NCBI RefSeq assembly: GCF_000023225.1
Contig: NC_013173.1
Location: 2,296,501 to 2,360,500 of the forward strand
Length of the DNA: 64,000 bases
Direction: 5' to 3'
From: Desulfomicrobium baculatum DSM 4028
Lineage (GTDB): Bacteria > Desulfobacterota > Desulfovibrionia > Desulfovibrionales > Desulfomicrobiaceae
The position numbers and the translations under genes are program-made. Shown here piece by piece: positions 20,225 to 58,715 of this stretch (positions are counted from its first letter, which is position 1; the number at the start of each line of letters is the position of its first letter). The notes beneath the pieces are model-generated. The model was not told where the DNA came from and did no database searches. It saw nothing but the letters and a program-made list of their open reading frames with translations.

Positions 20225-20341
20225 GACATGTGCCGGCTTTTTGCAGTCACCTTTCGTATGGCTGAAAAAAAAAACGAATATGCTGATAAAATTTACGTAG
20301 CAGCATAATATGTCAATTCCATTAATTCGTATTTTATCTTT

Positions 20342-21001: not shown

Positions 21002-21028
21002 ACCCTTCTCCGTAAAAATTGCGTCTAC

Positions 21029-22471: not shown

Positions 22472-22617
22472 TTCTTTTCTCCCATGCATTGCAGTTGTGC
22501 TTGAACGTCAGAATTTTCTTAAGATGCAGTTGCAGCGAAAACAGATTCCAAGACCATTATCTGTTACCAATCATAATATATGAAACTAAAATTTATTTCA
22601 TAAAAAATCTTTAAATT

Positions 22618-23757
22618 TTATTCATAACAAAATAAATCTTTGATAATTAATATTTCATTCAAAGACGCAACAAATACATCTACAAGTTTAGAATCAAAAT
22701 GCTTATCTTTCTCACTTACAATGATTGATACCGCATCGTCTACTGAAAAAGAATCCTTATAGGACCTTCGAGAAAGCAATGCATCAAAAACGTCAACGAG
22801 TCCGACAATCCGTGCTTCAATGGGAATATTCGCACCGCGCAAACCTTGAGGGTATCCTTTTCCATCCCAACGCTCGTGATGAGACAAGGCAACAATATGC
22901 GCTACCCGTAGCAAATCAGACTTACCATCTGCCAAAGCTCTTGCGCCAATCACGGTGTGTTGCTTCATGATTTCAAACTCTTCAGGTGTAAGCTTGCCGG
23001 GCTTAAGCAAAATATGATCTGAAATACCAATCTTTCCAAGATCATGCATTGAACTCGCCAAACCCAATTGCGCAGCGTCTTCCTGAGACATTCCACACTT
23101 CAATGCGATCAATTCTGTATATGCCTGGATTCGTTTAATGTGATTCCCTGTGTCTGTATCACGCAATTCTGCAGCAAGGCATAATCTGAAAATTGTTTCC
23201 CGCTTGACTTCATTCAGTTCGATATTTTTTTCTTCAAGCTTTTTGGTCCGTTCTGCCACCTTAAATTCAAGGCTCGTATTATATTCTTTCAATTTTCTTT
23301 CTGCGATTTTGAGCTTTAAATGAGTTTTTATCCTTGCATTAACTTCAATTATATCAAATGGTTTTTTTATATAATCAACAGCACCAAGCTCAAAAGCTTT
23401 ATTCAAAGTTAATGGATCACGTTCTGAAGTTATAAAAATCACAGGAATATCATTAGTATCTTTATTTTTTTTTATATATTTACAAACATCAAGGCCATTC
23501 ATATATGGCATGGAAATATCAAGCAGTATTATATCAGGCAAAGCGTAAGATAAAGAATCAAACGCTATCTTGCTATCTTGCGATACTGAAATTTTTGAAT
23601 AAGAACTTAGCGCCTCAATCAATACAAGTATGTTAATTTCATAATCATCGACAATTAAAATTTTGCATTCATTCAACTCTTCATCAATTTGATCATTCGG
23701 TACTTGCAAATTAATATTAAATTCAGAGTATTCGTCAATACTGTATTTATACTGCAT
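22618..23757 (-). CDS. Response regulator with HD-GYP c-di-GMP phosphodiesterase domain
   Basis: This 379-aa protein has an unusual ~30-residue N-terminal extension, a receiver domain (phospho-acceptor D80 in IILLDISMPYMNG, K in YIKKPF), a coiled-coil linker (~145-185) and an HD-GYP domain. The HD pair (236-237, MHDLGKIG) and HHERWDGKGYP (291-301) are intact, so hydrolysis of cyclic di-GMP is expected. Codon use is markedly AT-rich (many AAA, ATA, TTA) compared with flanking genes, suggesting acquisition by transfer. No kinase is adjacent. Confidence 0.88.
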   Translation of the reverse strand: MQYKYSIDEYSEFNINLQVPNDQIDEELNECKILIVDDYEINILVLIEALSSYSKISVSQDSKIAFDSLSYALPDIILLDISMPYMNGLDVCKYIKKNKDTNDIPVIFITSERDPLTLNKAFELGAVDYIKKPFDIIEVNARIKTHLKLKIAERKLKEYNTSLEFKVAERTKKLEEKNIELNEVKRETIFRLCLAAELRDTDTGNHIKRIQAYTELIALKCGMSQEDAAQLGLASSMHDLGKIGISDHILLKPGKLTPEEFEIMKQHTVIGARALADGKSDLLRVAHIVALSHHERWDGKGYPQGLRGANIPIEARIVGLVDVFDALLSRRSYKDSFSVDDAVSIIVSEKDKHFDSKLVDVFVASLNEILIIKDLFCYE

Positions 23758-24332
23758 AAATCCCCCTGCGATAAATTATTAATTCATTTTGAAAAATAAA
23801 TTATCACTAATATCAAAGAATCACCATCAATATGTACTCAAACTACTTGGTTATATGCCGCAGCTACAATGCCTAACCAACAGTATATTTATCATCATTT
23901 TGATACATAATTTTATACGCAATTACGCATGGAGCGTTGTTTAAAGCGAAACCAAGTCACGAAAAATTAATCGCCACTCTAAAAAAAACGCTATTAACTA
24001 CTTGTAATGTTATATATAATAGCTTCGGAAATAAAACAGCCAAACTCGCACCGAACATGGTTTTTTCCATGCAACAGCAAGCAAAAATCAGCAGCACAGT
24101 CCTGAAATGATGGCCACGCACAAGATATTGAAATGAGTACGTATTCAGAAAAATGAAAGGCAAACAAAAGCGGAAATGAAGGCATGCCACACCATACAAA
24201 TTTAATTATAACATAAATTCGTATAGTTATACTAAAAAAATACAAGCAGAAAAGCTAAATTTTCGAAAGAAGCGAACTGGAGGAAAAAATCGACCAAAAC
24301 GCGGATACCTCAGAAGCGGACTGGGGACCCGA
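23758..24332. other. AT-rich intergenic stretch
   Basis: This stretch of about 575 bp is strongly AT-rich and holds only short chance frames. I see no RNA gene, transposase or att-like repeat. It extends the AT-rich composition of the HD-GYP gene and then changes abruptly to GC-rich sequence. Confidence 0.5.
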
Positions 24333-40545: not shown

Positions 40546-42222
40546 TCACTCCAGGGAAGACGGAACTCTGGGCAAAAGGAGATAAAACGTCGACCCCTGC
40601 CCCTTCACGCTTGTAAAATCCAAAACTCCCTTCATGCTCTCAACTATCCCGTGACAGACCGACAGTCCCAACCCTGTCCCGCTGCCGGCCGGCTTGGTGG
40701 TGTAGAAGGGCGTGAAAACCAGCGTCTTCTGCTCTTCGCCAATGCCCGCGCCATTGTCCCTGATTTCGATACGGACCGTGTCCGCGCTCTCGGCGGAACA
40801 GGCCAGACCGATTTCGCCAGGCCGGACATGGGCGGTCTCGCTGATGGCATACATGGCGTTATTGAGCAGATTCAGTAAAACCTGCTGCAACCGGGCAGGA
40901 TCGACGTGCACGACCAGACGCGTGGGTGGAATATCGACCCGCAGGGCAATGTTGCTGAGCTGAATCTTTTTTTGAATCATGGTCAGCACTTCGGGAATAA
41001 ACGTGGACACATCGATGTTCTGCGCCTCGGACTTGCCCGCTCGTCCGAAACTCAGAATCGAATGGGTGATGCGCGCGCAACGGTCGATCTGAAGCTTGAT
41101 CTGGTTGACGCTTGCGGCCATCTCGTCCACGTCGCCAAGAAACTCGGCGTCTTCTCCAGCCCTGGCCCTGAAATCCTGCAACAGCATTTCGATATAGGCC
41201 TGGTCGCTCTTCATGATTTGCAGAGGATTGTTGATCTCATGCGCAAACCCGGCGGCCATTTCGCCCAACTCGGCAAGACGCCCGGCCCGATACAGCTGCT
41301 CACGCAGCTTTTCGCGTTCCTCGTCACGCTGCAGCAGCATTTTCTCCACATATCCGGTCAGATACAATGACGACAAAAGGACAATGATGCCTCCGGAAAG
41401 CAGGGACATTCCCAAAAAAAGCAGCGTCGAATCGGCGGCGCTGAATAGTGTGCCGCAATGCTTACGCGCGCCCAGGATCCACCCGCCATGGCTCATGACG
41501 GTGCTTGAATAGGCGGCGTCGGAAAGTGAATCCCGGAACGCCGTGCCGACACGATCCATGAACACATGCTCTACCAGCGCCCGGTCTCTGGTCAGAACCT
41601 GCCCGCCGCTTCCGGCAATGACTTCCCCGTCAGGGTTGACGAGAAACAGATCGACTCCCTCGCCGCGTCCGACCGTGAACAAGCTGGTGAAAACCGCCGG
41701 ATCCAGAGAAGCCCGCATGACAACGATCTCATCGCCGGCATTGACCCTCAAAGCCACAATGCAGAGAGGGAGGCCCATTTGGCCGGAGACCACGCTGCTG
41801 ATGCTGCTGCCCCTTTCCAACGCTTCGTCCAGCCATCGCCCCGGCACAACGTGAGTTCCCTTGTAGACGCTTGGCCCCGCGTAAGCCAGCACCATCCCCT
41901 TGGGGCTTACGAGAGCGACATCGACAAGCCCCTTGTGCTTGACGGCCAAGGTCTCGAAAACGACGCGCAATCCGGCGGAATCGGGATATTCCAGCTGGGC
42001 CCTGGCCATGGCCAGATCGCCCAGAAAGTCATCCAGAAAACGATCCACCACACGCGCGTTGTACGCGGACAGCAGCGTCAATTTATCGAGACCGCTCTGC
42101 TGGGCATGATTCCAAAAAAGATACCCGCCCGTTCCCAAAGCCAGCAACACGGGAATGAACGGAGCCAGCAACATGGCCACGAAAAAATTCCGTTTTATGG
42201 TTTGTCGCGTGTACTGGCGCAT
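40546..42222 (-). CDS. Membrane sensor histidine kinase (periplasmic cache-like sensor)
   Basis: This 558-aa kinase has membrane helices near 13-35 and 265-290 flanking a periplasmic cache-like domain (VALVSPKGMVLAYAGPS). A phospho-His H328 in GFAHEINNPLQ, N-box LLNLLNNAMYAI, G1 RDNGAGI and G2 GTGLGLSVCHGIVE follow. It is of the NtrB/DctB type. It starts 9 nt after the receiver at 42232, so they are co-transcribed. Confidence 0.9.
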   Translation of the reverse strand: MRQYTRQTIKRNFFVAMLLAPFIPVLLALGTGGYLFWNHAQQSGLDKLTLLSAYNARVVDRFLDDFLGDLAMARAQLEYPDSAGLRVVFETLAVKHKGLVDVALVSPKGMVLAYAGPSVYKGTHVVPGRWLDEALERGSSISSVVSGQMGLPLCIVALRVNAGDEIVVMRASLDPAVFTSLFTVGRGEGVDLFLVNPDGEVIAGSGGQVLTRDRALVEHVFMDRVGTAFRDSLSDAAYSSTVMSHGGWILGARKHCGTLFSAADSTLLFLGMSLLSGGIIVLLSSLYLTGYVEKMLLQRDEEREKLREQLYRAGRLAELGEMAAGFAHEINNPLQIMKSDQAYIEMLLQDFRARAGEDAEFLGDVDEMAASVNQIKLQIDRCARITHSILSFGRAGKSEAQNIDVSTFIPEVLTMIQKKIQLSNIALRVDIPPTRLVVHVDPARLQQVLLNLLNNAMYAISETAHVRPGEIGLACSAESADTVRIEIRDNGAGIGEEQKTLVFTPFYTTKPAGSGTGLGLSVCHGIVESMKGVLDFTSVKGQGSTFYLLLPRVPSSLE

Positions 42223-42231
42223 GGCGTACCG

Positions 42232-42645
42232 CTAGCGGACCCCTGCTTCTTCAAAAGCGGTGTATGCCGTCTCGACGATTGTCTTCAAGGCCACGGGCTT
42301 GAGCAGATAGGCATAGGCCCCGTAGGCCATCCCGCGTATTCCCATTTCTTCGCCGCCATGTCCCGAAAGGAGGATGACCTGGATCTTGGGCCAGGCGAGC
42401 TTGATTTCGCGCAAGGTTTCTATTCCATCCATCCCCGGCATCATCACATCGAGGATGATCACATCAAAATGCTCTTTTCCAAGCAGCAGCAGCGCCTCCT
42501 GTCCGCTGCCTACTCCAGTGACCTTGAATCCCCTGCGTTCCATGCGTTTGACCAGGGTTTCCACAAAATCCTGCTCGTCATCGACCACCAGCACGGAAGG
42601 TCCTGCATGCACGAGCGCAATCTGAACGTCGGTCTTTTCAGTCAT
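42232..42645 (-). CDS. Single-domain response regulator
   Basis: This 137-aa receiver has a 15-residue N-terminal tail, D66 in VIILDVMMPGMDG and Lys in YLLKPVAL. It overlaps the preceding kinase gene by 8 nt and is followed 9 nt later by another kinase gene, so translation of the set is probably coupled. Confidence 0.9.
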   Translation of the reverse strand: MTEKTDVQIALVHAGPSVLVVDDEQDFVETLVKRMERRGFKVTGVGSGQEALLLLGKEHFDVIILDVMMPGMDGIETLREIKLAWPKIQVILLSGHGGEEMGIRGMAYGAYAYLLKPVALKTIVETAYTAFEEAGVR

Positions 42646-44296
42646 GATGTTTCACCGGCAAAAGAATTATGAACTCGGTCCCCTTTCCAGCCTCGGACTC
42701 GAAGCGGATGCTTCCCCCCAGCTTGTTGATGATCGAGTAGCTGATGGACAGGCCCAGGCCCGTGCCCTCACCCACATTTTTGGTGGTGAAGAACGGGTCG
42801 AAAATTCGCCGCTGCACCTCCTTGTCCATGCCCGGACCATCATCACGGAGGCTAATGCTGACCATATCCGTTTCCGCTTCATATCCGGTCTTCACCGTGA
42901 TGTGGCCATTGCGGCCGATGGCGTCGATGGCGTTATTAAAAAGATTGAGGATGACCTGCTGGATCTGGGCGGCGTCGGATTGAATGGTCGGCAGGTCCGG
43001 ATTCAGCGCCCAGATCAACTCGATATTTCTGAATCGGATTTCGTTTTCGAGAAAAGCGGTGGTCTGCTTCAGCACGTCGTTGATATAAAGGTCGTTGCAG
43101 ACCGGCTCCATGCGCCGCGCAAAACCAAGCATGCGATGCACGACCGTGCCAGCCCGCTCGACATGCTGCTCAATCTTGTCCACGGCATCCACGAACTCCT
43201 GAAAATTCGGGCTGGCCTTGACATCCTCCTCTTCGAGCAGGTCGCGCATCCAACCCGCCTTCTCCCGAATGACCGCGAGCGGGTTGTTGACCTCGTGGGC
43301 CACCCCGGCCGCCAGCTTGCCCAGGGCGGCCATTTTGCTGGACTGGATCAGCTCCTCGTTCATTTGCGCCTGCTGTCTGCCCGCATTCTCCTGCTGGGCG
43401 ACGATCATGCGCGTGATGATGAGGGTGCCGAGGATGATCACGGCGAAACCGCCCCCCATAACGCCCCATGTCGCCATCCGCGTCTTGAAAAGAGGCTGGA
43501 GCTCTCCGCGCTTGTCCTCTTCAATGACCAGGAGCCATTCCTTTTGCTCAAGCCAGATGCCGCCCACGAAAATTTCTTTCTGCTCGGCCTCGTGCTGCAG
43601 GACCTTGGCCCCGGAAAATGGCGTACCGAGCAGGGGCGCATAGATATCCCGACTCTTGTTCCCGAATCTGGGCCGGGTCTGCAGATCCCCGGCACGATTG
43701 ACAAGATACGCATCTCCCAGATCCCCGAGTTGCAGCCAGCGCACCAAGGAATCGAAAATATCGGAGTCGATGGTGGCCCTCAGAATCCAGACCTTGCCCT
43801 TCTCTTGTTTTTGCACGGCGATGACCATGTGCGGAAAGCCACGAAAACCTTCGAATACGTCGGAGACGTAGACCTTGCGCAACATGACTTCATTGAACCA
43901 CTTCTCATTCTTGTAATTGGCATGGGACAGATTGTAGGGGCCGGAATAACTGACATGCACCCCGTCCTCGTTGATCAGCCCGAGGTCGATAAACGTCTTG
44001 GAACTGAGCTGCATGGTGGCGAGAATGCTTTCCAGCAGCTCCGGAGAAGAGAGGTCTTTGACACTGTGGGAGTAGGCCAGTGTACGCAGCTGCGCGATCT
44101 GTTCGCGCAAAAAGAGATCAATGCCCTGACGTTTGTTTTCCGCGAGGGTGGCCAGGTTCGTCTGAACCTTGGAGTTGTAGGTGGCGGCGAACATGGAATA
44201 CATCGTCACGCCCAAGGCAATGAGCGGAACCAGAGAAAAGCTCAGGGCGGTTATGGCAATCTTTGCCCCGAGCCCTTTGAGACCAAGTCCTGACAT
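42638..44296 (-). CDS. Membrane sensor histidine kinase (dCache-like sensor)
   Basis: This 552-aa NtrB/DctB-like kinase has TM1 near 12-38, a large periplasmic cache domain (GLINEDGVHVSYSGPYNL, AYLVNRAGDLQTRP) and TM2 near 277-299. A coiled coil, H334 in GVAHEVNNPLAVIREKAGWM, LFNNAIDAI, RDDGPGM and GTGLGLSISYSI follow. ATG 44296 has GGGGGA upstream; an in-frame GTG at 44347 lacks one. It is closely similar to the kinase at 50162. Confidence 0.9.
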   Translation of the reverse strand: MSGLGLKGLGAKIAITALSFSLVPLIALGVTMYSMFAATYNSKVQTNLATLAENKRQGIDLFLREQIAQLRTLAYSHSVKDLSSPELLESILATMQLSSKTFIDLGLINEDGVHVSYSGPYNLSHANYKNEKWFNEVMLRKVYVSDVFEGFRGFPHMVIAVQKQEKGKVWILRATIDSDIFDSLVRWLQLGDLGDAYLVNRAGDLQTRPRFGNKSRDIYAPLLGTPFSGAKVLQHEAEQKEIFVGGIWLEQKEWLLVIEEDKRGELQPLFKTRMATWGVMGGGFAVIILGTLIITRMIVAQQENAGRQQAQMNEELIQSSKMAALGKLAAGVAHEVNNPLAVIREKAGWMRDLLEEEDVKASPNFQEFVDAVDKIEQHVERAGTVVHRMLGFARRMEPVCNDLYINDVLKQTTAFLENEIRFRNIELIWALNPDLPTIQSDAAQIQQVILNLFNNAIDAIGRNGHITVKTGYEAETDMVSISLRDDGPGMDKEVQRRIFDPFFTTKNVGEGTGLGLSISYSIINKLGGSIRFESEAGKGTEFIILLPVKHHD

Positions 44297-44473
44297 ACCG
44301 GCTCCCCCAATCGAAATTCCCGCCGAACCTTGTTTCCATATATCCACAGCGCATCGTATACATATATGAGCCCTTCGGCGTGCGCAACAAGGCCGCGCCG
44401 CAAAAAGTCATCATTCCCTTGAAGAAAGCGAAAACCGGACTTGCCGGCCGTCGGTGAGAGGCGGCCTCATTAT

Positions 44474-46996
44474 CTAGACTCTCGCGTTATCGGCCGGACG
44501 CACATAGCGGGTCGCGGGGCCCTGGCCGACACGGGTCAACAATCCCCGGCTGACCAGATCCTGCAGGTCATAGCTCGCGGTTCGCTTTGAAATTCCACCA
44601 TCCAGGAGACCGAGCAGATCCTTGCTCGAAATGCTCCCGTGCTCGCGCACATATTCGCATGCGATGACCTGCCGGGAATTCAGGTCAAAAGGCAACCCGC
44701 CGTCATTTTGCGCGTTATCGTATTTAGCAGGCATTGAATTTTCAAAACCGTCCCCATTCTCCCGCGCAAACGAATCCGCGCTCTCGTCCTCGCCCTCGTT
44801 ACGCGCCTTGCCGTTGATGCCGAGTTGCTCGGACTGTATCACCCGCCCCTCGGACATGACGGCCGCCGTGATGATCACGTGCTTGAGTTCACGAATGTTG
44901 CCCGGCCAATCATAGGAAATCAGAGCTTTCAAGGCTCCGCGTGAAAGGGCCAAGCCGGTTCTTCCAGCCATGTGCTCCCCCTCTTTCAAGAAATGCATGG
45001 CCAAAAGAGGGATGTTCTGGCGCTGCTCCCGCAGCGGCGGGGTCGTGATGGTGATGACCTTGAGCCGGTAATAAAGATCCTCCCGGAATTTCCCCGTGCC
45101 GATCAGGGCCTTCAAATCGACATTGGTGGCCGTGATCAGACGCACGTTCACGTCCACATCCTGGTCGCTGCCCAGTGGTTTGATCTTGCGCAGGGAAAGA
45201 GCCCGCAACAAGGCTTGCTGGACCTTCAGGGATGCGGACTGAATCTCGTCCAGAAAGAGCGTTCCGCCATCGGCCTGCAGAAAAGCACCGCGCCGGTCCC
45301 CCTTGCCGTCCGTGAACGCACCTTTGACATGACCGAAGAGGGAGTCGAGCAGAAGATTTTCATCCAGTTCACCGCAATTGATGGAAATGAACGGCTTGCC
45401 GTTTCGCGAGGAAAGACGGTGCACGGCTTCGGCGGCCAACTGCTTGCCCGTGCCGGTCTCGCCTTCGATGAGCACGTCCACTTCGACCTGGCTGGCCTTG
45501 ACGATGTCTCGTTTCATCTGCTTCATAAACGGCCCCGCTCCGACAAGTTCGGGGAAGCTCTCGTCCAGCGTGGAGGCGGCGGGTCCCATGCTGAGCTCCA
45601 CAGGCTCTTTCAAGGTCACGGATTCGATCTTCAGGTCCTTTGATTTAATCTCCTCAAACTGCGCCTGCAGCGTCCGGATCATGGAATTGATCGAATCCTT
45701 GAGCATCTCTGCCTCGTATCCCGTCTCGACCAGCCGAACCTCCTCCCACTCTCCCTTTTCCGTCAGATTCTTCACCGCATAGGCGAGCTCCTGCAGGCCG
45801 AGCGTGGTCCCCCTGGCCACCAGAGCGATGGCCAGCACCAGAACCAGCACGGAGATGGCACTGATGATGAGCATGACATCGATGTGCCTGTATCCTGCAA
45901 GATCGACCAGCACGCTACGGTCCTCGTAAGCGATTCCACCGATGACCGCTGCGTCCTGACCCGGCGACAAGCCCAGGCGCACCGGTGCGTAGGCAAGAAA
46001 ATGTTCACTGTAGGGAGAACCTGAGTCCGCGCGCTTGAGCGGGCGGACAATATCTTTGTGACCCTTGCGAACATCCTCGACGGTCCGCCAATAGTTCTCA
46101 TTGCGCTCCGAAGGACGGAACGCCTCGGGCAAGCCAGGTCTGCCAAGCGTTCCGGATAGCGTTTTGCGGATATTCAAGGTCCGCAAAGGCGAGTCATCAT
46201 CAAGCTCCGACTCCGATTGGAATAGCGCCCAGCCGTCGACATCGAAAAAAAAGGTGTAACGCTGAAACTTTGGATTGCGCGGAAAAGCGAAGACGGGAGA
46301 GTTGGACGATTCATAGAGAGACAATACATTGCGGATCACCTGGGCGTTCAGGGAAAGATAGGCGTACCCGCCCAATTCCCCAGCAGGCCCCACATAGGGC
46401 GTGACCATGCGCAACGCCACGCGGGACACACGTTCACGCGGGTTTTCAGCGCTCGGATACGGTGTCTCCACCTCCCCGAACTCCGACAGCCATACTTCCC
46501 CGGCTTTCAACCCGCGAACATGCTCATACAGAAGCGCTGGACCAGGCCGAATGCCGTCCACTTCCTCCTGCGCCAATCGCCTGCTTTCCCCTTCGCGGCT
46601 CACAAAGACGACAGGCTCCCCTTCACGCAAGGGCATGAAGCCAAACTCCACAAACTCCAGCCCTTCAAGCTCTCGAAGATCCTTCAGATAGGCGGCCACG
46701 CCCTCCGCGTTCATCGGGTTGCGGGCTACAAAAAGCAGATGCCGCTTGCAACGTTCAAGCAGCGCTTCCACCGCGTGGGCGGTGGTCACGGCATGAATCC
46801 GTGAATTGCGTTCAAGGGCGAGGGAAATGAACTCCGAAGAAGCCCAATAGGTCGCATACCCCATCAGCGCGAGCACTATGAGGGAAGTGGGGATAAGCGT
46901 CACGAGCAGGCGCGTCCTCAGTTTGCGCCTGACAGGCGTGGATCTGACGCGCCATACCCGGGGCAACCATTCCAAAAAGACCTTCAGCTTGACCAT
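44474..46996 (-). CDS. Membrane-bound sigma-54 activator with variant GAFTGA loop
   Basis: This 840-aa protein has TM1 (30-51), a ~320-residue periplasmic sensor, TM2 (371-394), a HAMP-like linker and an AAA+ sigma-54 domain: Walker A GETGTGKQ (511-518), Walker B TLFLDE (579-584), DLYYRLKVITITTPPLREQ. The sigma-54 contact loop reads GAFTDG (559-564) instead of GAFTGA. The C-terminus lacks a Fis-type helix; it resembles a winged helix (SISSKDLLGLLDGGISKRT, LVSRGLLTRVG). ATG 46996 has GGAGGGAGT before it. It is divergent from the CBS-SLC13 operon and its probable activator, sensing an external ligand directly. Confidence 0.85.
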   Translation of the reverse strand: MVKLKVFLEWLPRVWRVRSTPVRRKLRTRLLVTLIPTSLIVLALMGYATYWASSEFISLALERNSRIHAVTTAHAVEALLERCKRHLLFVARNPMNAEGVAAYLKDLRELEGLEFVEFGFMPLREGEPVVFVSREGESRRLAQEEVDGIRPGPALLYEHVRGLKAGEVWLSEFGEVETPYPSAENPRERVSRVALRMVTPYVGPAGELGGYAYLSLNAQVIRNVLSLYESSNSPVFAFPRNPKFQRYTFFFDVDGWALFQSESELDDDSPLRTLNIRKTLSGTLGRPGLPEAFRPSERNENYWRTVEDVRKGHKDIVRPLKRADSGSPYSEHFLAYAPVRLGLSPGQDAAVIGGIAYEDRSVLVDLAGYRHIDVMLIISAISVLVLVLAIALVARGTTLGLQELAYAVKNLTEKGEWEEVRLVETGYEAEMLKDSINSMIRTLQAQFEEIKSKDLKIESVTLKEPVELSMGPAASTLDESFPELVGAGPFMKQMKRDIVKASQVEVDVLIEGETGTGKQLAAEAVHRLSSRNGKPFISINCGELDENLLLDSLFGHVKGAFTDGKGDRRGAFLQADGGTLFLDEIQSASLKVQQALLRALSLRKIKPLGSDQDVDVNVRLITATNVDLKALIGTGKFREDLYYRLKVITITTPPLREQRQNIPLLAMHFLKEGEHMAGRTGLALSRGALKALISYDWPGNIRELKHVIITAAVMSEGRVIQSEQLGINGKARNEGEDESADSFARENGDGFENSMPAKYDNAQNDGGLPFDLNSRQVIACEYVREHGSISSKDLLGLLDGGISKRTASYDLQDLVSRGLLTRVGQGPATRYVRPADNARV

Positions 46997-47229
46997 ACTC
47001 CCTCCCACTTTCCGATCCTTTCAAACGCGCCGCAAAATCGTGCAAATTAGCCTTCCTGCTAACAGATGCAGCGCACTTTGTTCAAGAAGAAAAGAAGCAA
47101 TAAGCAGCAAAATTATGCAATTTTATTAATTCTTCATCGAGAATAAAAAATCATTGTGAAATTTATATCAAAATAATTATCATTTAAAACAAATTGTTAA
47201 ATATAAAAAAACATATCGCGCAAAAAAAC
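46997..47229. other. AT-rich divergent regulatory region
   Basis: This AT-rich DNA lies between the sigma-54 activator and the CBS-SLC13 operon. Two inverted repeats stand out as possible activator sites: TTAGC/GCTAA (47047-47062, with outer TGCA boxes) and AAAATT-ATGC-AATTTT (47109-47124). A/T tracts could bend DNA or bind IHF. No gene is seen. Confidence 0.4.
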
Positions 47230-47247: not shown

Positions 47248-47365
47248 ATCTCATCACAGCGTTTGCAAGATTATTTTAAGACTTGAAATCGGCAATAACC
47301 CTGCGTCGGAAGCGAAGATGGTGCACACTCTTCAACTCCGGCCCAACCCCAAGGAGCGATGGATA

Positions 47366-47920
47366 ATGGAAGCATCCGTAAAAGACTTTATGGTCCCCAT
47401 AGCCAAATTCCCCAGAATTTCGGACACGGCCACTTTCTCGGGAGCGGTCATGGCCCTGGAGCGGGCCAACGAGGAATACCTTTCCGGGAAGCGTGAACAG
47501 CGCATCCTGCTGGTGACCGACAGTGAAAACAAGGTCGTCGGCAAGCTCTCCCCCCTCGACGTGGTCCGCGGACTCGAACCGGACTACGAAAAGCTGGTCG
47601 ACGAGCAAAGCAGCGTATACGTTGAAAAGTTCAGTTACGTGATCCAGCCCATGAAGGAGCAGACCACCCTGTGGGCCAAGCCGCTCGATGACCTCTGCAC
47701 CACCGCCAAGGACATCCTGGTCAAAGATTTCATCCAGCCTGCAAAATCGTCCCAGATCATCGATCTGGACGCGAACCTGAACAATGCCTTCCACCGCTTT
47801 GTCATGTTCAAGCATGACTCTCTTTTCGTCATGGAAGGCAAGAAGCTCATAGGCCTTTTGCGTTTTTCCGACGTGTACAAGGAAATCGGCCGCAGAATCA
47901 AAGAGTCCTGCGGCCTTTGA
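47366..47920 (+). CDS. CBS-domain protein
   Basis: This 184-aa soluble protein is made of one CBS pair: DFMVPIAKFPRISDTATF...ILLVTDSENKVVGKLSPLDVV and DFIQPAKSSQIIDLDANL...LFVMEGKKLIGLLRFSDVY. It probably binds an adenine nucleotide and regulates a neighbour, perhaps the transporter next door. It is related in layout to the CBS half of the protein at 39143. ATG 47366 has AAGGAG upstream; an earlier in-frame start has none. Confidence 0.85.
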   Translation: MEASVKDFMVPIAKFPRISDTATFSGAVMALERANEEYLSGKREQRILLVTDSENKVVGKLSPLDVVRGLEPDYEKLVDEQSSVYVEKFSYVIQPMKEQTTLWAKPLDDLCTTAKDILVKDFIQPAKSSQIIDLDANLNNAFHRFVMFKHDSLFVMEGKKLIGLLRFSDVYKEIGRRIKESCGL

Positions 47921-49601: not shown

Positions 49602-50045
49602 ATGGATAATCTGCCAAGATTGCTGCTGATCGATGACGAAGACCGTTTTCGCGAAACACTGGGCAAGCGTTTGATGGAAACCGGATACAATGTGAGCGGC
49701 GCAGCCAGCGGCATGGAAGCGCTGGATATGCTCGCCACCAACAAGTTCGACGTGGCCATACTTGACATCCAGATGCCGGGAATGAGCGGTATCGAAACCC
49801 TGGCCGAGATCCGCGCCAAGCACATTGGCGTGGAAGTGATCATGCTCACCGGCCACGGAGATGTGTCTTCGGCGGTGGAAGGCATGCGCCTCGGGGCTTA
49901 TGACTACCTCATGAAGCCATGCGAGTACGAGTACCTTGTGGTCAAGATCCAGGAAGCCTACAAAATCAAAAAGGATCGCGACGAAAGGCTGCGCAAGGCC
50001 GAAGAAAAGGCCCTGCTCGACAAGCTGCAGAAAAGATGGGTCTAG
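49602..50045 (+). CDS. Single-domain response regulator
   Basis: This 147-aa receiver has D55 in VAILDIQMPGMSG, a Thr in VIMLTGHGD and Lys in YLMKPCEYE. A charged helical tail (~20 residues, RDERLRKAEEKALLDKL) follows. There is no DNA-binding domain. AGGAGG precedes the ATG. It is the probable partner of the kinase that follows. Confidence 0.9.
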   Translation: MDNLPRLLLIDDEDRFRETLGKRLMETGYNVSGAASGMEALDMLATNKFDVAILDIQMPGMSGIETLAEIRAKHIGVEVIMLTGHGDVSSAVEGMRLGAYDYLMKPCEYEYLVVKIQEAYKIKKDRDERLRKAEEKALLDKLQKRWV

Positions 50046-50161: not shown

Positions 50162-51844
50162 ATGCTCGACGCTGGACGCTCATCACAAAGTCGAAGCCTG
50201 AGATACACGGTCGCCATGTACCTGCTCCTGCCGACGTTCTTCATCTTTATCTGCATTTTTTCGTACGCACTTCAGACCCTGGAAACACATTTCAGAACTC
50301 TGCGCGAAGCCGAAATCCACACGCTCGCAAACACATACCGCGAACGGGTCGAGCGGGAACTGCATGCAGCCGCGCAAGCGCTGCAGGCACTCGGACCGTC
50401 CTTGAAAAACAAGGCAAATATTGAAGCGGAACTCGCTGACGCTTATGAAACGTGGCACAAGGACATGGCGTGGCTGAAAGGCATTGTCATAACGGCACAA
50501 GACGGGGAACAGCTCGCCGTTGCCGGGCACCCCGATCTTGGGGATCTCAAGCCCACCCTCTCCGATCTTTCAGGCAGAACGCGGACGCCGTCCGGCCTTA
50601 TCATCACGAAAATCCGCACCGGGTCCGACGGGCTTACGAATTTTCAGATCGCAGCCCCGTTGCGCAACGATGCACACGGTCGCCTCGCATGCCTGTCCGT
50701 GAACGCGGTCCTGTTCAGCGCCCTTCTGGACAAGGAAAGGATCGGCCGCACGGGAGAGGTTTTCCTGATCAACAAGACAGGTATTCTGCAAACCAGATCC
50801 GTGCTGCACGGAGGGATCCTGGACAGCGTGGATCCGGACCTGGCCGTGACAGCGCCGCGCAAAGACGTTATTTCCAAGCGGGAATGGAGGGGAACACGGC
50901 TATGGTCCAGCATCCTCTCCGTGGCCGGAAACCCCGACTGGCGCCTTGTGGTCCAGCGCGACGAACGGGAATTACGTGAGCCGCTCAACGTTCAAACCGT
51001 CCGTTTCCTGTTTTTCGGCGTGCTTGGGCTGGCCATTCTCATCGCCGCCGCGCTGTTCACCACCAAAAAGATACTGGCATGGCAGGAAAACATGGAACAG
51101 GAACGCGTCCGACTGGCCGACCATCACATGCAGGTCCGGAAACTTGACGCCATAAGTCAGCTTGGCGTGGGCATCGCCCACGAGGTCAACAATCCCCTGG
51201 CCATCATCGGCGAGGAGGCAGGCTGGATGCAGGACGTGCTCAAGCGCGAATCCTTCAAGGACCATCCCGATGCCGGAGAATTGCGGGACGCCCTGCGCCA
51301 GATTGTGACGCAGACCGCGCGAAGCCGTGAAATCACCCACAAGCTCCTCAGTTTCGGCGGCAAAACCGATGGCACCATCCGCGACGTACAACTCAACATT
51401 CTTGTATTCGACGTCGCCACCCTGCGCCGCCGCGAGGCTTCGCAAAAGAATATCGAGATCCACGAAAAACTGGAACCGGGCCTGCCTGTCATTCTCAGCG
51501 AACCGGCCTTGCTCCGCCAGTTGCTCATCAACCTGATCAACAATGCCATGGACGCAATGCCCGAAGGCGGCAGCATCACCATCAGCACGAAGCGCGATGA
51601 CGACGACGGCGTCTGCCTGCAGGTCGAAGACACGGGATTTGGTATCCCCGAAGAAAACATGCACAAGATTTTCGACCCTTTTTTCACCACAAAGGCTCCA
51701 GGCAAGGGCGCGGGACTCGGCTTGTCCATCAGCCACGGCATTCTGCAACGCATAGGCGGACAGGTCTTCGCGACAAGTCGTCCAGGACGGGGGGCAACCT
51801 TCACGGTCCGCCTTCCCCTGGAAGCGCGGGCCATGTCCTCGTGA
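50162..51844 (+). CDS. Membrane sensor histidine kinase (cache-like sensor)
   Basis: This 560-aa kinase has TM1 near 15-38, a periplasmic sensor (WLKGIVITAQDGEQLAVAG, RTGEVFLINKTGIL), TM2 near 281-299 and a coiled coil. H340 in GIAHEVNNPLAIIGEEAGWM, INLINNAMDAM, EDTGFGI and GAGLGLSISHGIL follow. It is a close paralogue of the kinase at 42638. ATG 50162 has GGGGA upstream. Its stop lies 24 nt before the start of the PEP-synthase-like gene. Confidence 0.9.
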   Translation: MLDAGRSSQSRSLRYTVAMYLLLPTFFIFICIFSYALQTLETHFRTLREAEIHTLANTYRERVERELHAAAQALQALGPSLKNKANIEAELADAYETWHKDMAWLKGIVITAQDGEQLAVAGHPDLGDLKPTLSDLSGRTRTPSGLIITKIRTGSDGLTNFQIAAPLRNDAHGRLACLSVNAVLFSALLDKERIGRTGEVFLINKTGILQTRSVLHGGILDSVDPDLAVTAPRKDVISKREWRGTRLWSSILSVAGNPDWRLVVQRDERELREPLNVQTVRFLFFGVLGLAILIAAALFTTKKILAWQENMEQERVRLADHHMQVRKLDAISQLGVGIAHEVNNPLAIIGEEAGWMQDVLKRESFKDHPDAGELRDALRQIVTQTARSREITHKLLSFGGKTDGTIRDVQLNILVFDVATLRRREASQKNIEIHEKLEPGLPVILSEPALLRQLLINLINNAMDAMPEGGSITISTKRDDDDGVCLQVEDTGFGIPEENMHKIFDPFFTTKAPGKGAGLGLSISHGILQRIGGQVFATSRPGRGATFTVRLPLEARAMSS

Positions 51845-51867: not shown

Positions 51868-54360
51868 ATGACGGAGCGCACAGCCACCAAACTGTCCGGG
51901 AATGCGCCCGACGCCCGCCAGAAACTGGAACAAAAATACCAGTTTTTCAAAAATCTGCTTTCCCGCAACAACATCGTTCTGGAACAAATGACGTCCCTGG
52001 AGCGCATGATCCACGAAGGCGGATCCTTCACCCGGGAAGAGGCCGTGACCCTGGTCGAAGCCATGGCGGAACATTGCCGTCATCTGGCGCAGGACGTGAA
52101 CGCCCTGTGCGATGGCCAATTCCCCGAACTTTTCGAGAGCATCGAAACTGCCGCCGGGAACGCCTTGAATGCGCTGAACCGGCAAAGAACCTTCGACTTC
52201 TCCACTCTCATCCTGCCGCTTGAAGAGATCACCCTGGAACACCTGGAGGAGGTTGGAGGCAAGGCCGCGAACCTGGGAGAAATCCGCAACAAGATCGGTC
52301 TGCCCACCCCGTCCGGTTTTGCGGTCACGGCCTCGGCGGCCGCCCTCTTCCTGGAACAGACGGACCTGCTCGACACCTTGCGGCATCAGCTGGCGGCAAT
52401 GGATTTATCGGACATCGCGGCCCTGGAAAAGGTCTGCGCCAAAGCCAGCGAACGGATCATGACCGCGCCGCTCCCTCCTGCCCTTGAACAGGGCTTGATG
52501 GACAAGACACGGGAAATAATCAACCGCTTCGGCCCGAAAGTCCGCCTGGCCGTGCGGTCATCCGCTGTCTGCGAGGACTCGGACGCATCCTTTGCCGGCC
52601 AGCACGCCTCGGTTCTCGGAGCCGCCCCGGCGACCTTGAGCCGGGCCTGGAGCGCCGTCGTCGCCAGCGCCTTCACCGCCAGAGCGGTGTTCTACCGCCG
52701 GACCAAGGGCTATTCCGAGCAGGACGTGATGATGAGCGTGCTGGTCCTGACCATGATCGAGTCCAAAGCCAGCGGCGTCCTCTACACCATCGATCCGAAC
52801 TCGGCCCACAGCGACGACCTGCTGCTCGCGGCGGCCTGGGGCCTGGGAGTCAGCGTGGTCGACGGCTCCATGGACGTGGACTTCTGGCGCGTGCGCAGAG
52901 AGGACAAACAAATTCTTGTCACGCACGTCGCGGACAAAAAATCCGAATTCGTCGTGCTAGCCCAAGGCGGCATCGTGTCCAGGCCCGTGCAGGAGACACT
53001 GCGGGAGCAGCCCTGCCTGACGCCCACGCAGGTCGACATCCTCGCGGATTACGCCCTGCGCCTGGAAGCCCATTACGGCATGCCCATGGACATCGAGTGG
53101 GCGCTGGACGAAAAAGACCAGTTGATCATCCTTCAGGCCAGGCCCCTGCAACGCGCCGACGGCTTGAATCAGGCCGAATGCTGCAAACTCGTGCCGGGCC
53201 GGGCACCGCTTCTGTTCGGAGGTCAAACGGCCTCCCCCGGAGCCGCCTCGGGCCCGGTCTACATCGTTCAGCCGGACCATGAACTGAGCGCCGTTCCTCA
53301 GGGAGCCATCCTGGTGGCCCGGCAAACTTCCCCGACCTACGTCGCGGCCATGGGCAAGGTCGCGGGGATCATCACCGATGTGGGCAGCCCCAACGGCCAC
53401 ATGGCCTCGGTGGCGCGGGAGTTCGGCATCCCGACCCTGGTCGGTGCGGGCACGGGCACCGCTCTGCTGACCCATGGAATGGAGATCACCCTCGATGCCA
53501 CCAACCAGGTCGTCTATGCCGGCCAAGTCGCGGAAATCCTGTCCAAGCGCAAGCCCGTGAACCTGATGAAGGGCAGCCCCGTGTACAAATCGCTGCAGGA
53601 GGCCATGAAGTTCATCAATCCCCTCCATCTGGTGGACCCGCAACTTCCGGAGTTTTCAGCGCAAGGCTGCCGCAGCCTGCACGACATCATCCGTTTCGCG
53701 CACGAAATGGCCATGCAGGAGATGTTTCGCCTCTCCGACGGCCTCTCCCCGCACACCGGCGTGGCCCGCGAATTGCGGGCAGTGCTGCCCTTTCGCGTCC
53801 TGCTGGTCGACCTGGGGGGAGGCATCACCTCAAAAGCCGCTTCATCCTGGGTTGAGCTGGCCGACCTGCGCTGCGCTCCCCTCATCGCCCTGCTCCAAGG
53901 CATGGGACATCCCCGGATTCCCAAATTTGCAGGGCGCACCCAAGAAAACCAGCCCCCGCCCACCTGCTATGCGGTCGTGTCGGACACCTATGTCAATTTA
54001 AGCGGACGCCTGGGCAACCACTTCGCCACCATCGACTCGTATTCGGGGCCGGTCATCAACGACAACTACATCACCTTTTCCTTCAAGGGCGGGGCCGCGC
54101 AATACGAGCAGCGGGTCCGGCGGACGCTGGTTCTGGCCGGAATCCTGCGCCGCCAGGGGTTCAGGGTCACCCAGAGCGCAGACTCGCTCAGGGCTGAAAT
54201 CCGCAAGTACGACCAGCGCCGTTTTCTGGAGCGCCTGGACATGCTCGGTCGTCTCCTCGCCGCCGTGCGGGCTTTGGATTGGCGGCTCGACGACGACTCG
54301 GAAATCGCCAGGTACGTGGATGCGTTCATGAACGGCGATTACGCCTTCAGCCACCAGTAA
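51868..54360 (+). CDS. PEP-synthase-like phosphotransfer protein, first copy
   Basis: This 830-aa protein has a helical N-terminus (~1-115) and a PPDK/PpsA-type ATP-grasp domain (GGKAANLGEIRN ~130; VRSSAVCEDSDASFAGQHA ~229; DIEWALDEKDQLIILQARPL ~408-427). A phosphohistidine swivel domain follows, with H511 in SPNGHMASVAREFGIPTLVG. The last ~270 residues (560-830) do not look like the PEP/pyruvate TIM barrel and I do not recognise them. It should move phosphate from ATP to H511, but the final acceptor is unknown. The start at 51868 has GAAGG upstream; GTG at 51841, overlapping the kinase stop, is an alternative. Confidence 0.8.
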   Translation: MTERTATKLSGNAPDARQKLEQKYQFFKNLLSRNNIVLEQMTSLERMIHEGGSFTREEAVTLVEAMAEHCRHLAQDVNALCDGQFPELFESIETAAGNALNALNRQRTFDFSTLILPLEEITLEHLEEVGGKAANLGEIRNKIGLPTPSGFAVTASAAALFLEQTDLLDTLRHQLAAMDLSDIAALEKVCAKASERIMTAPLPPALEQGLMDKTREIINRFGPKVRLAVRSSAVCEDSDASFAGQHASVLGAAPATLSRAWSAVVASAFTARAVFYRRTKGYSEQDVMMSVLVLTMIESKASGVLYTIDPNSAHSDDLLLAAAWGLGVSVVDGSMDVDFWRVRREDKQILVTHVADKKSEFVVLAQGGIVSRPVQETLREQPCLTPTQVDILADYALRLEAHYGMPMDIEWALDEKDQLIILQARPLQRADGLNQAECCKLVPGRAPLLFGGQTASPGAASGPVYIVQPDHELSAVPQGAILVARQTSPTYVAAMGKVAGIITDVGSPNGHMASVAREFGIPTLVGAGTGTALLTHGMEITLDATNQVVYAGQVAEILSKRKPVNLMKGSPVYKSLQEAMKFINPLHLVDPQLPEFSAQGCRSLHDIIRFAHEMAMQEMFRLSDGLSPHTGVARELRAVLPFRVLLVDLGGGITSKAASSWVELADLRCAPLIALLQGMGHPRIPKFAGRTQENQPPPTCYAVVSDTYVNLSGRLGNHFATIDSYSGPVINDNYITFSFKGGAAQYEQRVRRTLVLAGILRRQGFRVTQSADSLRAEIRKYDQRRFLERLDMLGRLLAAVRALDWRLDDDSEIARYVDAFMNGDYAFSHQ

Positions 54361-54484
54361 CTTTTCGCATTCCCCCGAAATGACCGATCCTGTCCGGTTG
54401 CCTGGACCCGCCGGTCTGTGTCACTACTCGTTTACACAACACGAGTACCCGGCCCAGCCCTCGGACGGATATCGCGGAGCACGC

Positions 54485-57148
54485 ATGAACCTGATCCAGC
54501 GCGTCAAGAACATCTTTTCCCCTCCAGCCCCGACCAAGGAGCAGGACAACGAGCAGGAAGACCTTTTCAGGGCCAGATACCAGGCCTTTCGCAGGCTCCT
54601 GTCCGCGAACAACGGCGCGCTGGACTTCATGACGGAACTGGAGGAGGCCGCCCAGGGGCATCGCCACTTCGGCATGCATTTCGTCAGATCCAGGGCCACG
54701 GGAGCCACGGCCAAAGTCTACAATATCGTGGAAAACCTGCTTTACCTCGCGCCTGGAAAATATCTGGGGCTGCGCGATGCCCTGCGCACCATACAGGACC
54801 AGATTCAACAGGAACTCACGCTCAAGCAGACAAGCCGCCGTCAGGAGCTTGTGCTCGACCTGGACCGGATAACCGCCCATGACGTGGAGGACGTCGGCGG
54901 CAAAATGGCCAATCTGGGTGAGCTGCGCAACACTCTGCAGATCCCCGTTCCTGCCGGATTCGCCATCACCGCGCAGGCCTACATGGTCTTCATGCAACAG
55001 AGCGGTCTTTGGGACGAGATCAACTGCCTCGTGCTTGGGCACCCCATGGCCTCGCACTTCGGGGCCTGCACCCTCCCCGGGCACTCCGACGATGACGAAG
55101 ACGAGACGGAAAATAACGGCACCGACCAGCCCATCGCCCTTCTGGAGATGTGCGCCAAGATCCGAGGCATGATCCTCGCGGCCGAGGTGCCCAAAGAGCT
55201 GGAAGAGGCTCTCCTCTCCGCCTACGACCGCCTCTGCGCACGCGAAGGCGGGCAGATCAACGTGGCGCTGCGCTCAAGCGCCCTGGGCGAGGACAGCGCA
55301 GGCGCGTCCTTTGCCGGGCAACACCGCTCGCTGTTGAACCTGGACCGGGACAGCCTCCTGGAAGGCTACAAGGAGGTCGTGGCCAGCAAATATTCAGCCC
55401 ACGCCATGACCTATCGCTACATGCTCGGCATCAGGGACGACGACGTGCTCATGTGCGTCGGATGCCTGAGCATGGTCACTTCGAAGGCGGGCGGGGTCAT
55501 GTACACGTCCAACCCGCTCAACGCCGCGGACAACCGCCTCCAGATCACTTCGGCCTGGGGAATGGCCAAGGGCGTGGTCGACGGCACCGCCACTTCCGAT
55601 CGGTTCCTGCTCGAAAAAGGCCCCCCGCCCCGCATCGTCGAACGATCCGTGCCGCGCAAGGAATCCGCCCTGGCCTGCTCCGGGACCGAAGGCGTTTGCA
55701 GGGTTTCCGTCGATCCGGAGCTGGTGGGATTGCCGACCCTGGACGATGCTCAGATTTTCGAACTCACGGCCATGGCCTCTCGCATCGAAGCCCATTACGG
55801 AACTCCCCAGGACATCGAGTGGGCCTACACTCCCGAAGGCCGCCTGTTCCTGCTGCAAACGCGCCCCCTGGACATTCGCCAGACCCAGCCTGCGCCGGAA
55901 TTGCTGCCGGGCGCACAGCCCCTGATCCAGGACGGGCAGACGGCCAGCTCGGGCACAGCCCACGGAGTCGTGCATATCGTCAAGAAGGACGTGGACATTC
56001 TCGTGCTTCCGGAAAAGGCGATCCTGGTCTGTGTCGAGGCGACACCCAAATGGGCCGCCGTCCTGAACAGATGTCAGGGCGTCATCGCCGAACAGGGCAG
56101 CGCGGCCGGCCATCTGGCCAACGTGGCCCGCGAATTCAATGTGCCGGCGCTGTTCGGCGTTCACTCCGCAACAAGCATCCTTGAAGCCGGTCAGGAGATC
56201 ACTCTCGACGCCGACAACAGGGCCGTTTACGCAGGATTGCAGGAAGCGTTGCTGGACCGGAACCCGGCGCGGCCGAACATGATGGAAGGCAGCCCGGTTT
56301 TTCAGACCCTGCTGAATGTCAATCGCTTCATCACGCCGCTGGGGCTTCTCGACCCCGACGGCATCGACTTCACTCCGGCCAACTGCAAGACGCTGCACGA
56401 CATAACCCGCTTCTGCCATGAAAAATCCGTGCAGGAGATGTTCAGTTTCGGCCGCGACCACAATTTTTCTCCCAGGTCGAGCAAGCAGCTCAAGACCATC
56501 GTGCCCATGCAATGGTGGATCATCAATCTTGAGGACGGATTTCTCACTGATACCGGCGACAAAATGATCCCGCTGGACAAGATCTCCTCCGTCCCCATGC
56601 TTGCGCTCTGGCGAGGCATAGTGGCCTACCCCTGGGAAGGACCTCCCTGCATCGACTGCAAAGGCTTCATGTCGGTGCTTTTCCAGTCCGCGACGAACCG
56701 GAACCTGGAACCGGCCATGGCATCCCAGTTCTCGGAAAAAAACTATTTCATGATTTCGAAACACTTCTGTAATCTGCAGTCCAGGTTCGGGTATCACTTC
56801 ACGTCCGTAGAAGCCCTGGCAGGGCCACGGCCGCGAGAGAACTACATCCGCTTTCAGTTCAAAGGCGGGGCCACGGACCACCAGCGCAAAGTCCGCAGAG
56901 CACGATTCGTCGGAGAAATACTTGACGAGTTCAATTTCCAAACACGGGTGCGGGAAGATGCGCTCTTCGCCCGACTGGACGACTGCGACCAGGAATTCAT
57001 CGAAAATCATCTGGAGATCCTGGGCCACATCCTCATCCATACACGGCAGCTGGACATGATCATGAACAGGGAAGACGTGGTCCAACTCTACAAAAAACGC
57101 ATCCTGAACCAGCTTCACGCTATGATGGATGCAAAAAACACGGCCTGA
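54485..57148 (+). CDS. PEP-synthase-like phosphotransfer protein, second copy
   Basis: This 887-aa paralogue of the preceding protein has the same order: helical N-terminus (~1-125), ATP-grasp (GGKMANLGELRN; LRSSALGEDSAGASFAGQHR ~262-281; DIEWAYTPEGRLFLLQTRPL ~443-462), swivel H543 in SAAGHLANVAREFNVPALFG, and the same unrecognised C-terminal ~300 residues (FKGGATDHQRKVRRARFVGE parallels FKGGAAQYEQRVRRTLVLAG). An acidic loop (~200-215) interrupts the ATP-grasp domain. ATG 54485 has GGAG six bases upstream. The two probably form a heteromer or act in sequence; this is inference. Confidence 0.8.
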   Translation: MNLIQRVKNIFSPPAPTKEQDNEQEDLFRARYQAFRRLLSANNGALDFMTELEEAAQGHRHFGMHFVRSRATGATAKVYNIVENLLYLAPGKYLGLRDALRTIQDQIQQELTLKQTSRRQELVLDLDRITAHDVEDVGGKMANLGELRNTLQIPVPAGFAITAQAYMVFMQQSGLWDEINCLVLGHPMASHFGACTLPGHSDDDEDETENNGTDQPIALLEMCAKIRGMILAAEVPKELEEALLSAYDRLCAREGGQINVALRSSALGEDSAGASFAGQHRSLLNLDRDSLLEGYKEVVASKYSAHAMTYRYMLGIRDDDVLMCVGCLSMVTSKAGGVMYTSNPLNAADNRLQITSAWGMAKGVVDGTATSDRFLLEKGPPPRIVERSVPRKESALACSGTEGVCRVSVDPELVGLPTLDDAQIFELTAMASRIEAHYGTPQDIEWAYTPEGRLFLLQTRPLDIRQTQPAPELLPGAQPLIQDGQTASSGTAHGVVHIVKKDVDILVLPEKAILVCVEATPKWAAVLNRCQGVIAEQGSAAGHLANVAREFNVPALFGVHSATSILEAGQEITLDADNRAVYAGLQEALLDRNPARPNMMEGSPVFQTLLNVNRFITPLGLLDPDGIDFTPANCKTLHDITRFCHEKSVQEMFSFGRDHNFSPRSSKQLKTIVPMQWWIINLEDGFLTDTGDKMIPLDKISSVPMLALWRGIVAYPWEGPPCIDCKGFMSVLFQSATNRNLEPAMASQFSEKNYFMISKHFCNLQSRFGYHFTSVEALAGPRPRENYIRFQFKGGATDHQRKVRRARFVGEILDEFNFQTRVREDALFARLDDCDQEFIENHLEILGHILIHTRQLDMIMNREDVVQLYKKRILNQLHAMMDAKNTA

Positions 57149-58004: not shown

Positions 58005-58715
58005 ATGTACTGTAAAAAATGTAAATTCCATTCCTTTGATCATGTCAGCGCATGCCCCAAGTGCGGAGCAGACTGGGAAGAATCCCGCAAGGCTCTCTAC
58101 CTGAACTGGATCCTCGCCTCGGGAACCAACTGGCTGGTCCATGACGCAGTAGCACCACAGTCCGTGCCCGAGTCTTCAGCAAAGCCGGCGAAAGTCGAGG
58201 CTCATACACACAGCATGAGCGCTTCGGCGACGGACTATTTGGCAGCGCCCCCGGCACACCCTGCGGCAGCCGCGACGAAAAATACCGACATCGACGTCTC
58301 GAATTTTCCGGATCTGGATTTCAGCATGGCCGAAGCCCCGGCCAAAGACCCAGTTCCCGCGAAAAAAGCCCCGGCACCCAACGCGGACGAGGACCTGTTT
58401 CTGGAAACACTCCCGCCCGAAGACATGGTCGAGCTTGACTTCAGCGCGTCCTTCGACACTCCGGCCGCTCCGCAAACACCTGCTCCGGCCAAGGCGAAGC
58501 GCGAAGACCTGTTCATTCCGGAACTGGAAGAAATGCTCGCGCCTTTGGATGACGAGCCTCGATCTAAAGGCGCTTCGGCCAAGAAACCTTCATTCTCCCC
58601 GGAGACGGAGATTCTTCTTGATTTCGGAACCGATTCTTCGGAAAATCCTTCCGGGAAATCAGGCGACGACGACCTATCCTTCCTGAGTCTCGAAGATCCC
58701 AAGAAATCCTCATAG
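58005..58715 (+). CDS. Zinc-ribbon protein with acidic, Pro/Ala-rich tail
   Basis: This 236-aa protein begins MYCKKCKFHSFDHVSACPKCGADW, a treble-clef zinc ribbon (C3, C6, C17, C20 by count). After ~45 residues it becomes a disordered Pro/Ala/Ser/Asp-rich chain. Short acidic-hydrophobic motifs recur (DLDFS, ELDFS, LLDFG, DDLSF). I do not recognise the full protein. It could be a protein-interaction hub. A terminator follows. Confidence 0.7.
   Translation: MYCKKCKFHSFDHVSACPKCGADWEESRKALYLNWILASGTNWLVHDAVAPQSVPESSAKPAKVEAHTHSMSASATDYLAAPPAHPAAAATKNTDIDVSNFPDLDFSMAEAPAKDPVPAKKAPAPNADEDLFLETLPPEDMVELDFSASFDTPAAPQTPAPAKAKREDLFIPELEEMLAPLDDEPRSKGASAKKPSFSPETEILLDFGTDSSENPSGKSGDDDLSFLSLEDPKKSS

Follow-up and report, generated by a model that had tools for sequence, protein, structure and literature searches.

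PEP-synthase-like proteins of Desulfomicrobium baculatum with an undescribed C-terminal domain in place of the barrel belong to a large family

Introduction

Two neighbouring genes of Desulfomicrobium baculatum DSM 4028, called here P1 and P2, code for proteins that resemble PEP synthase in their ATP-grasp and phosphohistidine domains and end in a domain of another kind. The question raised by this locus is what such proteins can phosphorylate when the PEP/pyruvate barrel is replaced, and whether the pair stands on its own. Both genes lie in the window, that is, the whole stretch of 64,000 nucleotides that was analysed (genome positions 2,296,501–2,360,500; the genome has 3,942,657 bases in one contig), and an earlier note on this DNA, made from the letters alone, had singled them out. 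The name PPSX is coined here for the family of P1 and P2. A search of open-licence full texts found no paper on this family, and a description elsewhere is possible.

Methods

Conservation was counted over PPSX proteins of at least 780 aa, which numbered 119 and, after removal of identical sequences, 117; fragments and a dead paralog were left out. The C-terminal alignment A2 was made without L040 (an ORF with a split match) and L116 (cut by a contig end), and alignment A3 also without L055, L065, L087 and L105. Gene neighbourhoods were compared in 104 loci by Fisher tests that set genes at most three positions from PPSX against genes at least six positions away. Twenty of these loci had been picked for paired or strong hits; three of the 104 are from this genome, and L075 and L128 cover one and the same region. 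Clusters drawn from these 104 loci also supplied the partner profiles, with genes taken from a simple ORF caller.

Results

The Gene Run and Its Two PEP-Synthase-Like Products

P1 and P2 are adjacent open reading frames, located where the earlier note had put them, and they close a run of six plus-strand genes with gaps of 23–147 bases, in which a CBS protein, a DASS transporter, a single-domain receiver and a histidine kinase come first (Table 1); the kinase gene and the transporter that had been read ahead of the pair are thus present on the same strand. The histidine kinase has two candidate starts, GTG 50141 or ATG 50162, and an earlier start is possible for P2 at 54380. In the genus, the orthologs of P1 and P2 adjoin in all eight fetched loci that are long enough to show both (L166–L173), and the CBS, DASS, receiver and kinase genes stand directly ahead of them in L166, L168 and L169.

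Other features of the surroundings are recorded here for completeness. A zinc-ribbon-like protein of 236 aa follows P2 (window 58005–58715), and a gene of similar length trails the pair in several genus loci. On the minus strand, a divergent cluster (window 40549–47008) contains two histidine kinases of dCache-like type, one single-domain receiver and a sigma-54 activator that lacks a receiver domain. Finally, G+C falls to 0.442 in window 20001–24000, against 0.55–0.64 in the rest of the window.

Table 1. Genes of the run and domains of P1 and P2, in window coordinates.
Feature	Position	Strand	Basis
CBS-domain protein, 200 aa, first in run	47318..47920	+	Pfam CBS E 2.2e-6
DASS-type anion transporter, 488 aa	47988..49454	+	Pfam Na_sulph_symp 4.6e-41; TIGR00785 176.9 bits, below cut-off 198.6
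Single-domain response regulator, 147 aa, phospho-acceptor Asp55	49602..50045	+	Pfam Response_reg 9.8e-31
Sensor histidine kinase, HisKA + HATPase_c, weak dCache-like match	50162..51844	+	Pfam HATPase_c 6.7e-29
P1, PPSX protein, 830 aa	51868..54360	+	ORF, Pfam
P1 N-terminal segment, about residues 1–114	51868..52209	+	No Pfam match above cut-off
P1 PPDK_N (ATP-grasp), residues 127–432	52246..53163	+	Pfam E 2.9e-87
P1 PEP-utilizers (phosphohistidine) domain, residues 477–546; H511 codon 53398–53400	53296..53505	+	Pfam E 6.6e-22
P1 C-terminal domain, about residues 560–830	53545..54357	+	AlphaFold model, conservation
P2, PPSX protein of a clade other than P1's, 887 aa from ATG 54485	54485..57148	+	ORF, Pfam, tree
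P2 PPDK_N (ATP-grasp)	54887..55885	+	Pfam E 1.8e-84
P2 phosphohistidine domain; H543 codon 56111–56113	56009..56218	+	Pfam PEP-utilizers E 1.3e-18
P2 C-terminal domain	56252..57145	+	AlphaFold model; family's invariant residues present

In both proteins a PPDK_N match is followed by a PEP-utilizers match, and the histidines 511 and 543 proposed for P1 and P2 are confirmed as those of the phosphohistidine domains. The NCBIfam PEP synthase models stop at about residue 561 in P1 and 592 in P2, and in the 270–300 C-terminal residues, for which the lack of a barrel signature had been claimed, no Pfam or NCBIfam family matches in either protein. The additional N-terminal segment that had been noticed is real and moderately conserved across PPSX. 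A motif given as FKGGAxxxxRxVRR is indeed shared by the two C-terminal regions, but its wording is better changed to FKGGAxxxx[QR][RK]VRR (P1 FKGGAAQYEQRVRR, P2 FKGGATDHQRKVRR).

The C-Terminal Domain

An alignment of 87 C-terminal domains has a mean column identity of 45% and contains invariant His, Asp, Arg, Asn and Gly residues. When these 87 domains were scanned singly against Pfam, nothing significant or recurrent was obtained (the best E was 0.013, and each family matched two members at most), and a PDB sequence search with the domain gave no match (best E 0.14). When hhalign compared its profile with one built from the barrels of two PEP-synthase-type proteins that this genome encodes, the probability was 0.1%, the barrel alignment having just two rows. 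The AlphaFold models of the domain in P1 (pLDDT 86.0, pTM 0.69) and in P2 (56327–57100; pLDDT 83.0, pTM 0.73) have the same order of elements, namely a long helix, two strands, a helix, four strands, a helix, two strands and a long helix. As modelled, the C-terminal domain is a mixed alpha/beta fold common to P1 and P2, with no (beta/alpha)8 pattern, and the normal PEP-utilising barrel, which would have spoken against the earlier note's reading, appears in neither model. A diverged barrel of this type was rejected on the basis of the AlphaFold models, the Pfam scans and the profile comparison.

A known fold was also sought. Foldseek with the P1 and P2 models found nothing at E 0.001 or better, and the best VIA-align scores for the two models (Z 7.2 and 6.8) extend mostly over a ferredoxin-like half. 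DHHA1-type domains recur in the structure lists (8a8k, Z 7.0 over 78 residues, and Z 6.6 over 76), and the longest alignments, of 134–141 residues at Z 5.3–6.2, are with red chlorophyll catabolite reductase, coproporphyrinogen oxidase and PcyA. Because these scores are within the range of common arrangements, no function is drawn from the matches. Foldseek, VIA-align and the PDB sequence search gave nothing confident, and the fold has no confident known counterpart; newness of the fold does not follow from this, and folds missing from the structure lists are not thereby excluded.

Spread, Conservation and Clades of PPSX

The earlier note had interpreted the two proteins as a PEP-synthase-like pair in which an undescribed C-terminal domain replaces the barrel and may serve a new acceptor. 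The architecture stands and the new acceptor is a fair suggestion, but the pair is not isolated, being part of a large family. Of 297 genomes sampled from the phylum, 107 have the C-terminal domain, several of them with up to eight matches, and a pattern scan of a genome collection confirmed at least 559 relatives, the best 80 of which come from Desulfobacterota, Nitrospirota and some bins labelled Deferribacteres or Bacteroidetes. This genome alone codes for five proteins with the domain: P1, P2 and the paralogs C (1037 aa), D (817 aa) and E (566 aa).

In P1 numbering, the phosphohistidine H511, the ATP-grasp residues G130, K132, R230, S231, E236, D237, E410, Q423 and R425, and the C-terminal residues H605, D606, R609, H612, H718, R752, D772 and D804 are all present in 117 of 117 full-length members, and Cys601 of the C-terminal domain is nearly invariant (93%). 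Positions conserved at 95% or more amount to 24 of 233 in the C-terminal domain and 27 of 331 in ATP-grasp, and the new domain is therefore held as tightly as the catalytic core. The N-terminal segment has two such positions in 114, with Y24, F27, L31, N34, E45, Y85 and L88 conserved in 84–97% of the 117 members.

In a FastTree tree of 118 rows, for which long branches and uneven composition were flagged, P1 and P2 fall in two distant clades. Members of the P1 clade (23 rows) are mostly without the partner genes searched for, and those of the P2 clade (20 rows) often have TauE, the protein c10, kinases and receivers. A clade of 19 rows that includes paralog D has a dual-specificity phosphatase gene nearby in 18 of them, and a longer form, to which paralog C belongs, makes up a clade of seven rows. 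Paralog C and its clade carry about 220 extra C-terminal residues with no Pfam match (L002:868-1533, minus strand). Among 16 loci with two full-length PPSX genes, which were chosen for two matches close together, 15 pair a member of the P2 clade with a member of a separate 15-row clade, L128 being the exception. A third tandem PPSX-like gene occurs in some loci (L126:10213-12381, L125:5697-7454); it has weak PPDK_N and PEP-utilizers matches and no recognisable C-terminal domain, and adjoins another single-domain receiver.

Gene Neighbourhoods

Single-domain receivers (67/604 near PPSX vs 4/220 distant genes, p 2.5e-6) and histidine kinases (68/604 vs 5/220, p 8.4e-6) are about five- to six-fold enriched near PPSX, followed by the dual-specificity phosphatase (21/604 vs 0/220, p 0.0013) and c10 (11/604 vs 0/220, p 0.03); the loci are interrelated and partly hand-chosen, and these p values are therefore optimistic and a guide only. 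Enrichment was not significant for DASS (9/604 vs 0/220, p 0.06), TauE (29/604 vs 6/220, p 0.13), CBS (14/604 vs 2/220, p 0.16) and universal stress proteins (18/604 vs 6/220, p 0.53), and the small protein c8 did not pass the same distant-gene control. A two-component gene, a transporter or a phosphatase is found within three genes of PPSX in 78 of the 104 loci, none of the searched partners in 23, and CBS genes like the first gene of the run in 10. In the partners themselves, the acceptor Asp is intact in 64 of 65 single-domain receivers beside PPSX, and the phosphatase, whose gene follows 21 PPSX genes directly and in the same direction, keeps HCx5R in every case.

Another module of this genome, about 15 kb before the window (L140:5554-12474; genome about 2280554–2287474), carries paralog D, in the order phosphonate-type substrate-binding protein, histidine kinase, receiver, D and dual-specificity phosphatase. 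The c10 protein is membrane-associated, has 230–240 aa and no Pfam match above cut-off, and lies between TauE and PPSX in several loci (L105:3875-4585, L110:5418-6113).

A Dead Paralog Kept in the Genus

Paralog E (L141:6550-8247; genome 760549–762246; orthologs L150–L164) retains the N-terminal segment and the C-terminal domain, whereas its phosphohistidine domain and the greater part of ATP-grasp are gone; against NCBIfam it gave no family at 1e-10. A full-length, stop-free match to E is present in all 16 searched genomes of the genus, at 47–100% identity, and 15 of these 16 loci have a TauE gene immediately upstream. Among 17 E-like proteins (the 16 of the genus and one further E-like family protein), the phosphohistidine is absent and R609, H612, H718 and D804 are changed in all 17. 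The loss of the site is partial, as D606 is kept in 17, H605 and R752 in 14 each and D772 in 10. Since half of the invariant C-terminal site has disappeared along with the phosphorylation machinery, this paralog suggests that the residues concerned serve phosphotransfer, and its retention throughout the genus suggests a second, non-catalytic role.

Discussion

The reading that we favour, and to which we would give about an even chance, is that PPSX proteins are active ATP-to-histidine phosphotransferases with a new acceptor domain that serve within modules for sensing and anion transport. The chemistry that we infer from the conserved domains would start with the phosphorylation of the swivelling-domain histidine by ATP-grasp, yielding AMP and Pi as in PEP synthase; the swivelling domain would then bring the phosphoryl group to the C-terminal domain, which would hold the acceptor in a putative site formed by the invariant His, Asp and Arg residues. 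As there is no barrel, the acceptor must sit elsewhere, and the C-terminal site is the obvious place. Furthermore, the same residues are kept in clades with different partners, so that all of them probably act on the same small molecule, or on a group belonging to the domain itself, and not on many proteins. In regulatory terms, PPSX would work with a sensor kinase and a single-domain receiver, often alongside a transporter of the DASS or TauE type; the dual-specificity phosphatase of one clade may undo the product of PPSX. What counts against this reading is that TauE, DASS, CBS and universal stress proteins do not reach significance near PPSX, that 23 loci and most of the P1 clade lack the searched partners, that E-like proteins have lost the C-terminal site only in part, and that the structure searches offered no known fold as a guide to function. 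The DASS and TSUP/TauE proteins of sulfate reducers are presented in PMC5840216 as candidate transporters of sulfate or sulfur anions with roles mostly untested, and nine operons of the D. vulgaris sigma-54 regulon encode TSUP or PSE transporters of unknown substrate, according to PMC4641369. Such candidates would make a link of PPSX to the uptake of these anions reasonable.

The transporters can also be given a more central place. PPSX would then be a metabolic kinase that phosphorylates the organic or inorganic anion imported by DASS or TauE, and the two-component genes would control only expression or uptake. The type of reaction would be that of PEP synthase, and a DASS gene beside the window pair, a CitMHS/Na_sulph_symp-type neighbour at paralog C, TauE beside paralog E and a transporter within three genes in 35 of the 104 loci are consistent with this proposal. 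We consider it rather unlikely, however, because the transporter families vary while the C-terminal site is invariant, many loci are without a transporter, and a purely metabolic role does not explain why a dead copy sits next to TauE almost throughout the genus.

The strong enrichment of receivers bears on another proposal, namely that the phosphohistidine of PPSX donates its phosphoryl group to the transporter or to the Asp of the adjacent single-domain receiver and thereby offers an alternative signalling route. Of all neighbours the receivers, with their acceptor Asp intact, show the greatest enrichment, and one clade has a phosphatase directly after PPSX. Against this, the invariant C-terminal site would be left without a role, a histidine kinase already adjoins the receiver in most such loci, and in 48 of the 104 loci the three genes on either side include no single-domain receiver; protein phosphorylation thus seems improbable. 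Likewise improbable is a sensor or scaffold in which the kinase half gauges ATP/AMP, the C-terminal domain docks onto the transporter or some other partner, and turnover is incidental. Proteins of two kinds that often bind adenine nucleotides, CBS and universal stress proteins, do occur nearby, and the genus-wide dead copy adjoining TauE points in the same direction, but catalytic residues kept without a single exception among the other full-length members speak against it. The proposal that these are PEP synthase isozymes with the pyruvate site rebuilt in an unrelated domain, for which one may cite the best named matches (PEP synthases, over the ATP-grasp and phosphohistidine parts), the acidic and basic residues and Cys601 of the C-terminal domain and a single member next to a pyruvate kinase gene (L044), is most improbable of all given a full PEP synthase in the same genome, up to eight PPSX copies per genome and a gene context of signalling, not gluconeogenesis.

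Returning to PPSX as phosphotransferases with their own acceptor domain, a fuller version can be offered only tentatively. Under the control of the sensor kinase and receiver, PPSX might use ATP to make or charge one common phosphorylated compound through its phosphohistidine and so adjust the transport of anions, perhaps sulfur anions; the phosphatase of one clade might remove this compound, and the dead paralog might be a locked regulatory version. If PPSX proteins are as we propose, a large family that now passes for PEP synthase in the annotation of sulfate reducers and related organisms does not make PEP, and models of carbon flow that count PPSX genes as PEP synthases need correction. 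The undescribed, invariant acceptor domain, tied to receivers and a phosphatase, would then also be a definite target, since finding its acceptor would establish a phosphorylation chemistry that is new and perhaps a means of controlling the uptake of anions.

Comparison with Known Enzymes

Several enzymes share parts of the PPSX architecture. Pyruvate phosphate dikinase and PTS enzyme I have a homologous phosphohistidine domain, but both have a PEP-binding barrel, which PPSX lacks. The prodigiosin ligases PigC and RedH, as they are named in NCBIfam, reuse the PPDK_N and His domains for another chemistry; P1 scores 216.5 bits against an NCBIfam cut-off of 1300. PEP synthase itself (pyruvate, water dikinase, EC 2.7.9.2) has the same order of PPDK_N and phosphohistidine domains, and P1 residues 114–561 match it significantly, whereas PPSX is without the PEP/pyruvate-binding barrel, has C-terminal invariant residues of its own and carries an extra N-terminal segment. 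Over the full length, P1 and P2 reach 335.4 and 301.4 bits with TIGR01418, far below the cut-off of 739.75, which the ordinary PEP synthase of the same genome (L005) exceeds with 1192.6 bits.

Another example is rifampin phosphotransferase (Rph), which combines an ATP-grasp and swivelling-His two-step mechanism with a non-barrel acceptor domain, and whose homologues are often misannotated as PEP synthase and said to have diverged in specificity (PMC4844700). The acceptor domain of Rph sits between ATP-grasp and the His domain (PMC4844700), whereas the C-terminal domain of PPSX comes after the His domain (477–546 of 830 residues in P1), and the NCBIfam Rph model NF041857 gives 235.9 bits for P1 and 209.8 for P2, short of its cut-off of 999. 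Rph is the closest precedent for a swapped acceptor domain, from which PPSX differs both in domain order and in the acceptor domain itself.
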